Shown: piece by piece, positions 2,500 through 23,501 of the stretch
Layout: each line of letters starts with the position of its first letter
Position numbering within the stretch: the stretch's first letter is position 1
NCBI GenBank assembly: GCA_036389795.1
Contig: DASVWD010000013.1
Span: forward strand, 1-33,531
Source of the DNA: Longimicrobium sp.
Lineage (GTDB): Bacteria; Gemmatimonadota; Gemmatimonadetes; Longimicrobiales; Longimicrobiaceae
Length of the DNA stretch: 33,531 nt
Direction: 5' to 3'
Notes under the pieces: generated by a model
The model's input: the letters and a program-made list of their open reading frames with translations, nothing else
What the model was told of the DNA's origin: nothing
The model's database searches: none
Program-made: the position numbers and the translations under genes

Positions 2500-6507
<4,008 letters not shown>

Positions 6508-18032: not shown

Positions 18033-18359
18033 CTACTGGTCGCAGTACGGCGGGCAGGTGAACTGGTCGTAGGTCATGCACGGCTCCTCACACGAGTAGC
18101 AGGAGTAGTAGGCGCAGGTGTACTCGTTCTGGCAGGTGTACTCGCAGCTGAGGCAGGTAGCGTCGTCGCAGGTGTTCTGGCACGTCGCGGGGCAGGTGGC
18201 GCAGCAGGTGTTGCAGCACGTACAGCAGCACGGGCAGCAGCAGCAATACGGACAGTACTCCTGCTCGTTCGCGCGCACGGTGCCGCCGCGTTCGGCGCCA
18301 CGGGCGGTGTCGAAGGACTCGACCACCAGCGCGTCCAGGTCCAGTCTGAGCTTCTTCAT
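18033..18359 (-). CDS. Candidate RiPP precursor, extremely Cys-rich (24 Cys)
   Basis: A 108-residue peptide. The ATG at 18359 has AGGAG seven bases upstream. Residues 1-35 are a charged leader (MKKLRLDLDALVVESF, then GGTV) without cysteine. The remaining 73 residues contain 24 Cys, first as clusters (YCCCC, PCCC, TCC, TCC), then as short repeats ending in T-C or S-C (CPATC, CQNTC, CEYTC, YSC). The leader matches that of the 69-aa peptide at 23292 and resembles pinensin-type lanthipeptide leaders common in Longimicrobium. T/S next to C would suit lanthionine formation, but metal binding is an alternative. No LanB, LanC, LanM, radical SAM or peptidase-transporter gene is nearby. Confidence 0.82.
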   Translation of the reverse strand: MKKLRLDLDALVVESFDTARGAERGGTVRANEQEYCPYCCCCPCCCTCCNTCCATCPATCQNTCDDATCLSCEYTCQNEYTCAYYSCYSCEEPCMTYDQFTCPPYCDQ

Positions 18360-18496
18360 CGTGCGCTCCTCTCGTGTCTGGATGACGCCGCCGGCTCGCG
18401 CGCGGCGGCCGAGTGCGATCGGGCACCTGTCCGCTCCGACTGGACGGCACTCAAGCCGCCGGGACGCACTCGACGCCGGATCGCGGGGGCTGACAC

Positions 18497-23245: not shown

Positions 23246-23291
23246 TCGCCACAGATCTCCTTTCCTCCCCAAAGCTTCCGAGGTGACGCTG

Positions 23292-23501
23292 ATGAAAAAG
23301 ATTCGGCTGGATCCCGAGAATCTTCGTGTTGAATCGTATGTCGTCAACGACGAAGACAGGTTGCGGCCCGGAACAGTTTTCGGCCACAGTGAGGGCGAGT
23401 CGATCGTTACCTGTAAGAGTTGTGATTTCAGTGGGTGCGACCGGACCTGCGTCAAGACTTGCTACGATTGCGAGCCGGTGCCCACCGCGATGACCGTGTA
23501 G
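23292..23501 (+). CDS. Candidate RiPP precursor (pinensin-type leader)
   Basis: A 69-residue peptide. The ATG at 23292 has GAGGTGA upstream. The leader MKKIRLDPENLRVESY is followed by a GTV motif, then a core with six Cys: SIVTCKSC, FSGC, DRTC, VKTC and YDC. Four of the six are directly preceded by Thr or Ser. The leader aligns with the 24-Cys peptide encoded at 18359-18033. Lanthipeptide-like modification is inferred; no modification or export gene is present within the window. Base composition is lower in GC than the flanks, and 20-bp direct repeats bracket the gene. Confidence 0.85.
   Translation: MKKIRLDPENLRVESYVVNDEDRLRPGTVFGHSEGESIVTCKSCDFSGCDRTCVKTCYDCEPVPTAMTV

Follow-up and report, generated by a model that had tools for sequence, protein, structure and literature searches.

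The described systems closest to the peptide family reported here are the pinensins and the prochlorosins. Pinensins are class I lanthipeptides of Chitinophaga, and their leader type is recorded as NF038180 (pinensin family lanthipeptide leader) and corresponds to precursor family I 17 in PMC7268733. Prochlorosins and synechococsins are made by one promiscuous synthetase (ProcM or SyncM) from scattered and tandem precursors with a conserved leader and a hypervariable core; PMC10783134 gives 29 precursors for Prochlorococcus MIT9313 and up to 83 for Synechococcus MIT9509, and PMC9872173 up to 79 prochlorosin-type precursors per genome. Here, we describe a 69-residue peptide gene, P0001, at positions 23292–23501 of a 33,531-nucleotide stretch of Longimicrobium sp. 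(GenBank assembly GCA_036389795.1, contig DASVWD010000013.1), referred to below as the window. Judged from its sequence, P0001 is very likely one precursor of a very large pinensin-type class I lanthipeptide family that forms an in-trans library, in which all of the roughly 150 peptides are probably turned into ringed, antibiotic-like molecules by a single set of enzymes whose genes lie elsewhere in the genome. The genome paper on Longimicrobium terrae lists lanthipeptide clusters and no precursor family (PMC7291104), and we found no paper on these Gemmatimonadota peptides in the openly licensed PMC literature, a body that most subscription papers lie outside.

The two peptides of the window

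The window is the whole of contig C13 of a draft genome (G000; 7.52 Mb, 285 contigs, 98% complete, 3.75% contamination). P0001 starts with the ATG at 23292 and stops at 23499–23501, with all six Cys in the core, and a second peptide gene, P0002, lies on the opposite strand. In the following list, leader scores are those of a hidden Markov model (HMM) introduced in the next section, and ORF stands for open reading frame.

23292..23501, plus strand: precursor peptide gene P0001, ORF of 69 amino acids with 6 Cys (leader HMM 45.2 bits, E 9.1e-11)
23292..23378, plus strand: P0001 leader MKKIRLDPENLRVESYVVNDEDRLRPGTV, with an IxLD recognition-like motif, VES[FY] and GTV
23379..23498, plus strand: P0001 putative core, with cysteines in TC, SC, GC, TC, TC and DC context, in line with the TC/SC enrichment of the family
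23280..23286, plus strand: P0001 Shine-Dalgarno-like gaggtga, 5 nucleotides before the ATG, a kind of site that recurs across the family
18033..18359, minus strand: precursor peptide gene P0002, ORF of 108 amino acids with 24 Cys (leader HMM 57.7 bits, E 1.1e-14)
18276..18359, minus strand: P0002 leader MKKLRLDLDALVVESFDTARGAERGGTV
18036..18275, minus strand: P0002 putative core, in which [ST]Cxx[ST]C is repeated
18366..18372, minus strand: P0002 upstream Shine-Dalgarno-like AGAGGAG

The original prediction, made from the sequence alone, had placed a peptide with a six-Cys core at 23292–23501 and had claimed that it shares its leader, including a GTV before the core, with the 24-Cys peptide of the window while the two cores are unrelated. 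All of this was borne out: K-K-[IL]-R-L-D...L.VES[YF] is common to both peptides, GTV stands at residues 27–29 in P0001 and 26–28 in P0002, and the leaders are 57% identical. The cores share little beyond their Cys-rich composition, since their identity (32.5%) barely exceeds that of shuffled cores (25.5 +/- 4.5%). A direct look-up of both peptides in NCBIfam and Pfam gave no match at E<=10.

A genome-wide family with one leader

A single protein query found 70 places in G000 at E<=10, and a leader profile was built from 92 aligned leaders taken from the ORFs around them. With this profile, at least 150 places were found in the genome at E<=0.005 and 138 at E<=1e-6 among the best 150 of 344 candidates scored. 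A local search of 75 fetched G000 stretches and the window returned 151 ORFs at an independent E-value (i-E) <=0.01, of which 140 pass 1e-6, on 66 contigs; reversed ORFs used as decoys gave no match to the leader HMM at E<=1. The leader, for which a genome-wide search had been proposed, is thus not unique to the pair in the window. About 150 leader-sharing peptide ORFs are present in one genome, a count that is inexact because only 150 of the 344 candidates were scored, the local search covered 75 stretches and the window, and arrays are cut off by contig ends; it may be an underestimate. Of the 79 groups formed by the 151 ORFs, 56 consist of one gene each, and the largest hold 8, 9, 12 and 13 members. 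A Shine-Dalgarno-like GGAG, GAGG or AGGA lies within 20 nucleotides upstream of 143 of the ORFs, compared with 21% of random window positions.

A leader gene at L022:5790-5885 (G000:C84) has no core, its stop following directly after GTVHG, and the core of another (L111:2179-2466, G000:C14) consists of three copies of VSGGGATQCGGVQTCGGGCQ. Precursors are densely arrayed in L120 of a sibling genome (G008:C20:1-11724), with 24 leader matches in 11.7 kb.

In the alignment of 92 leaders, K3, L6 and G27-T28-V29 are invariant. A strict set of 138 of the 151 ORFs (i-E<=1e-6, coding bias >0.1, not cut by a contig end) contains GTV in 129 members, and 114 of these have it starting from residue 26 or 27. 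The motif [FLIVM]x[LIV][DN] occurs in 125 of 140 leaders, compared with 32 after shuffling, and this LxLD box fits the FxLD/LxLD-type lanthipeptide recognition motif of PMC12710340. With such a motif in the leader and a core rich in Ser, Thr and Cys, the peptides have the sequence features of class I precursors.

The cores of the 129 strict members with GTV reach 103 residues and 24 Cys and hold 1061 Cys in total, set against six in the leaders, and Ser and Thr together equal or outnumber Cys in 119 of them. For 550 of the 1061 core Cys, Ser or Thr stands directly before the Cys, 2.7 times the shuffled count: TC occurs 351 times (131.5 +/- 9.8 when shuffled) and SC 199 times (69.8 +/- 7.5), whereas CT and CS are depleted (103 vs 131.5 and 32 vs 69.3). 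A Cys spacing of four is likewise in excess (270 vs 91.5 +/- 8.6), and [ST]Cxx[ST]C is found 182 times, in 69 of the 129 cores. The excess of TC and SC recurs in sibling genomes, where 65 cores, taken from 77 matches, contain 118 TC (53.6 shuffled) and 94 SC (32.0 shuffled). Mean identity is 53% for leaders (20% shuffled) and 30% for cores (27% shuffled), and in all 25 of the closest-leader pairs listed (25 of 36) leader DNA similarity is at least as high as core DNA similarity.

The maturation enzymes

The window was predicted to lack a maturation enzyme, and this holds: contig C13 has no LANC_like or Lant_dehydr_C match, and the ten window proteins scanned with Pfam are not enzymes of ribosomally synthesized and post-translationally modified peptides (RiPPs). 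The genome as a whole has four LANC_like matches and one Lant_dehydr_C (PF14028) match. On contig C225, the N-terminal part of a LanB (1077 amino acids, L054:8283-11516), an elimination protein (350 amino acids, L054:11500-12552) and a LanC (684 amino acids, L054:12987-15041) are encoded in a row, with PF04738 (3.5e-46) and PF14028 (5.5e-41) on adjacent ORFs and PF05147 (4.3e-49) as the third Pfam match of the locus, so that the maturation genes foreseen by the original prediction do exist, as one split LanB and a LanC. The LanB N-part resembles TbtB 6ec7 (3.3e-25) and, weakly, 9g04. The LanC is closer to LanM cyclase domains (TIGR03897, 7.5e-70), and a structure search gives it a LanC fold (Z 27.9 to 8cav). 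H227, C312-H313 and C359-H360 are invariant among eight LanCs, and C312 and C359-H360 are what we take to be the zinc ligands. With the glutamylation and elimination domains of LanB and a separate LanC carrying the Cys and Cys-His motifs, the set is, by its domain content, a class I lanthipeptide system. On contig C206, an ABC (ATP-binding cassette) transporter (PF00664/PF00005), an HlyD and a subtilase adjoin 13 precursors, the names of the latter two proteins resting on Pfam matches of sibling copies.

Co-occurrence and synteny across genomes

In a sample of 41 genomes, comprising G000 and 40 relatives, with a leader threshold of E<=1e-6, ten genomes have leader peptides, exactly these ten also have the LanB elimination domain, and both are missing from the other 31; the chance of two identical sets of ten is about 1e-9 under the assumption of independent genomes, an assumption that does not hold here. 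The leader places number 138 in G000, at least 150 in each of G002 and G008, and then 69, 58, 42, 15, 11, 5 and 1. Within the genus itself, seven of ten genomes have both leader and LanB and three have neither. LanC-domain proteins are spread more widely (19 of the 41 genomes, including three congeners without leader peptides), and the linkage is therefore to LanB. Leader ORFs adjoin LanB/LanC in six of the ten genomes (G002, G006, G008, G009, G014 and G015), and in five of these six loci, all except that of G014, an ABC transporter and an HlyD lie in the same stretch. The modification system acting in trans on many substrates that had been postulated is supported by the size of the leader family, the location of the enzymes on C225 and the shared set of ten genomes, from which we infer that the enzymes act on the peptides.

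Among 395 genomes sampled from the phylum, the leader was detected at 1e-8 in only ten, eight in the same family and two elsewhere with a single match each. Homologues of the elimination protein were found in named genomes of Gemmatimonadota, Acidobacteriota, Ignavibacteriales, Chitinophaga, Pedobacter and Streptomyces. Beside such a homologue, two loci of Ignavibacteriales/Melioribacteraceae (L128 and L130) encode leader peptides with GTV or GTI and with TCxxTC or related Cys-rich cores. Whole-genome leader counts in ten genomes reached via the elimination protein were 8, 1, 4, 3 and 1 in five, with none in the other five.

A predicted leader-binding domain on the cyclase

The C225 LanC extends about 240 residues (446–684) beyond its cyclase domain. 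An HMM of this tail matches the main LanCs in eight Gemmatimonadota genomes as well as those of L127, L128 and L130 and, weakly, that of L078 (G020); no match was obtained for G006 (which has one precursor), for the class V-like LanC described below or for L131. The complete LanC retrieved LanC folds in a structure search, and the tail was therefore modelled by itself, giving a predicted structure with a predicted local distance difference test score (pLDDT) of 85.3 and a predicted template modelling score (pTM) of 0.82. Among the matches listed for it are TglI (Z 12.6, root-mean-square deviation (rmsd) 5.3, 198 residues aligned), NGO1945 3dee (Z 11.4), a TbiB1–lasso leader complex (Z 6.6, rmsd 2.6, 88 aligned), NisB 122–233 (Z 6.6) and PqqD (Z 6.2). 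In Pfam, four of eight tails match NGO1945_C (best 8e-4) and six of eight match PqqD (best 0.014, below the cut-off). PMC12710340 names 3DEE a DUF2063-associated RiPP recognition element (RRE). The tail is thus predicted to have a winged-helix fold related to known RREs, and we interpret it as a domain that binds the leader and is fused to the cyclase, which would offer a testable reason for a cyclase working in trans.

Proposed mechanism and its meaning

In our model, about 150 short genes, whose groups are mostly single, scattered genes and in a minority of cases tandem arrays, encode peptides with a leader of about 28 residues and a fast-diverging core. The [LI]xL[DN] box of the leader would be bound by the leader-binding domain in LanB, as homology suggests, and also by the second such domain predicted at the C-terminus of LanC. 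By family membership, the split LanB, made of a glutamylation protein and a separate elimination protein, would dehydrate core Ser and Thr residues, and the zinc-type LanC would close (methyl)lanthionine rings with the Cys. The ABC transporter and HlyD would export the product, and the neighbouring subtilase probably cuts off the leader near GTV. This enzyme set, encoded once and on another contig, would serve all precursors in trans, and the library would grow by tandem duplication with the cores diverging faster; an arsenal of bioactive peptides seems the likeliest use.

More tentatively, the system may be the largest natural in-trans lanthipeptide library so far, with a single class I machine, leader-binding domains on both dehydratase and cyclase, and some 150 or more hypervariable substrates containing as many as 24 Cys. 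The [ST]Cxx[ST]C repeats of these substrates might form ladders in which tandem rings overlap, an architecture that is not known from lanthipeptides. If the proposed model is true, the prochlorosin principle of one tolerant enzyme and diversified substrates extends to unrelated class I enzymes. The family would also provide a natural experiment on a dehydratase and a cyclase handling 2 to 24 cysteines and a ready leader/enzyme pair for designed libraries, and it would explain small orphan ORFs that number in the hundreds in Gemmatimonadota.

Contrary evidence and alternative explanations

Several observations weigh against reading P0001 as a pinensin-type precursor modified in trans. Neither P0001 nor P0002 matches NF038180, and the GG that precedes the core in the Chitinophaga relatives is replaced by GTV in 129 of the 138 strict members. 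The enzyme contig C225 (15.4 kb) itself shows no precursor; it ends 335 bases after LanC, and precursors may therefore follow there unseen. In four of the ten genomes (G000, G001, G007 and G020), no leader ORF was seen beside the main enzyme copy in the stretch examined. The Z scores of the LanC tail against the classical small leader-binding domains are just 6 to 7. Ring formation between a Cys and the Ser or Thr immediately preceding it is not expected, so the TC/SC habit of the cores is not obviously a lanthionine signature. Finally, P0001 is a weak family member, with VESY for VESF, and G000 also encodes two LanMs (C28) and a class V-like set (C285).

P0001 itself might be decaying or silent within a family that is real, a case that is unlikely and that would be compatible with the lanthipeptide reading. 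Its coding bias (GC content at third minus second codon positions, GC3 minus GC2) is 0.23, lower than the 0.3 to 0.5 of most of the family, the VESY leader scores more weakly with the leader HMM, and decay does occur among its relatives, as in the gene at C84:5790 that has lost its core to a stop; the ORF is nonetheless intact, follows a Shine-Dalgarno-like site, and retains six Cys and the leader positions that are invariant in the family.

We consider it improbable that the peptides are modified by the other lanthionine machinery of G000, either the two LanMs or the kinase/HopA1/LanC set of class V type. Both are present in the genome, and the CSA[IV]DACP[ST]xxC motif in the core of some leader peptides is also repeated in the large Cys-rich ORFs that adjoin the class V-like set. 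However, the LanMs adjoin ELSESELEAVAGG-type precursors of their own, CSA[IV]DACP peptides also occur in the LanB/LanC loci of G002, G008 and G009, and LanC-domain enzymes are found in nine of the 41 genomes without any leader peptide, the congeners G003, G004 and G005 among them. On this co-occurrence, LanM and class V-like enzymes were set aside as the main maturases.

Slightly less probable still is that the peptides are exported Cys-rich products with disulfides or metal sites, the leader being an export signal only and no lanthionine being formed: the very high Cys content (24 in P0002), the ABC exporter and subtilase beside precursor arrays, and the fact that TC/SC dipeptides are not a textbook sign of rings would suit this explanation, but it leaves aside the exact co-occurrence with LanB, the synteny with LanB/LanC, the likeness of the leaders to the pinensin lanthipeptide leader and the ample supply of Ser and Thr in the cores. 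YcaO-type azoline formation was rejected as the main chemistry, with no YcaO in G000 by a search that was positive in five of 14 control genomes.

As for the other loci mentioned, the two LanMs are encoded at L055:3494-13876 (G000:C28) together with several ELSESELEAVAGG-type precursors, which have GG leaders, apparently as a separate class II system. The class V-like locus (L056:9896-19493, G000:C285) comprises an LxmK-like kinase (below cut-off), a HopA1 and a LanC, and adjoins two large ORFs (1242 and 510 amino acids) built of GSGGGTDTVYY repeats and CPSAVDACPTxxC-type motifs. A core of the CSA[IV]DxCP[ST] type, whose motif is also present in these large L056 ORFs, is found in the leader peptides at L009:8021-8200, L019:9733-9894, L080:15811-15960, L081:5238-5599, L086:7036-7197 and L114:2355-2693, most of which lack GTV. 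Elsewhere in the window, a single-module nonribosomal peptide synthetase with condensation, adenylation, carrier and thioesterase domains is encoded at 2539-6504 on the plus strand, and a putative secreted serine protease, recognized by eye from a GDSGGP motif, at 720-2081 on the minus strand.

Comparison with known systems

The leader-binding domains of TglI, NGO1945 (DUF2063) and TbiB1/PqqD have a fold like that predicted for the last approximately 230 residues of LanC, which here, unlike in those proteins, are fused to a lanthionine cyclase.

The lanthipeptide family proposed here shares with the pinensins the leader core [KR]LxLxDLx[VI]ESF. NF038180 is matched by 75 of the 92 leaders at a lax E<=10 (best 1.6e-9), and at its curated cut-off of 24 bits two of eight full-length peptides pass (25.7 and 24.4). 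Conversely, Chitinophaga precursors beside a homologous elimination protein match the leader HMM weakly (L136, L139, L140, L142 and L171; i-E 1e-4 to 8e-4). In both systems LanB is split and LanC is akin to the cyclase domains of LanM, as described for pinensins in PMC7268733 and found in the C225 locus, and in both LanC has a long C-terminal extension, which measures 197–221 residues in five Chitinophaga loci and has no match there to the tail HMM. Unlike pinensins, the family has about 150 precursors in one genome, mostly distant from the enzymes, compared with no more than one match to the leader model in each of five Chitinophaga and Pedobacter genomes, and has long cores with many Cys and [ST]Cxx[ST]C repeats.

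Its organization, with scattered and tandem precursors that combine a conserved leader with a hypervariable core, resembles that of the prochlorosins and synechococsins. It differs from them in its phylum, in its class I LanB and separate LanC in place of a LanM, in a pinensin-like leader with GTV in place of a Nif11 leader (P0001 and P0002 had no Nif11 match in the NCBIfam and Pfam look-up) and in a precursor count about twice the 83 of PMC10783134, the largest published figure that we found. On its sequences, the system would work like a prochlorosin system and is not one, the co-occurring enzyme being LanB and not LanM; in classification it comes nearest to the pinensin type, from which it differs by having GTV where that type has GG and by its very great expansion.
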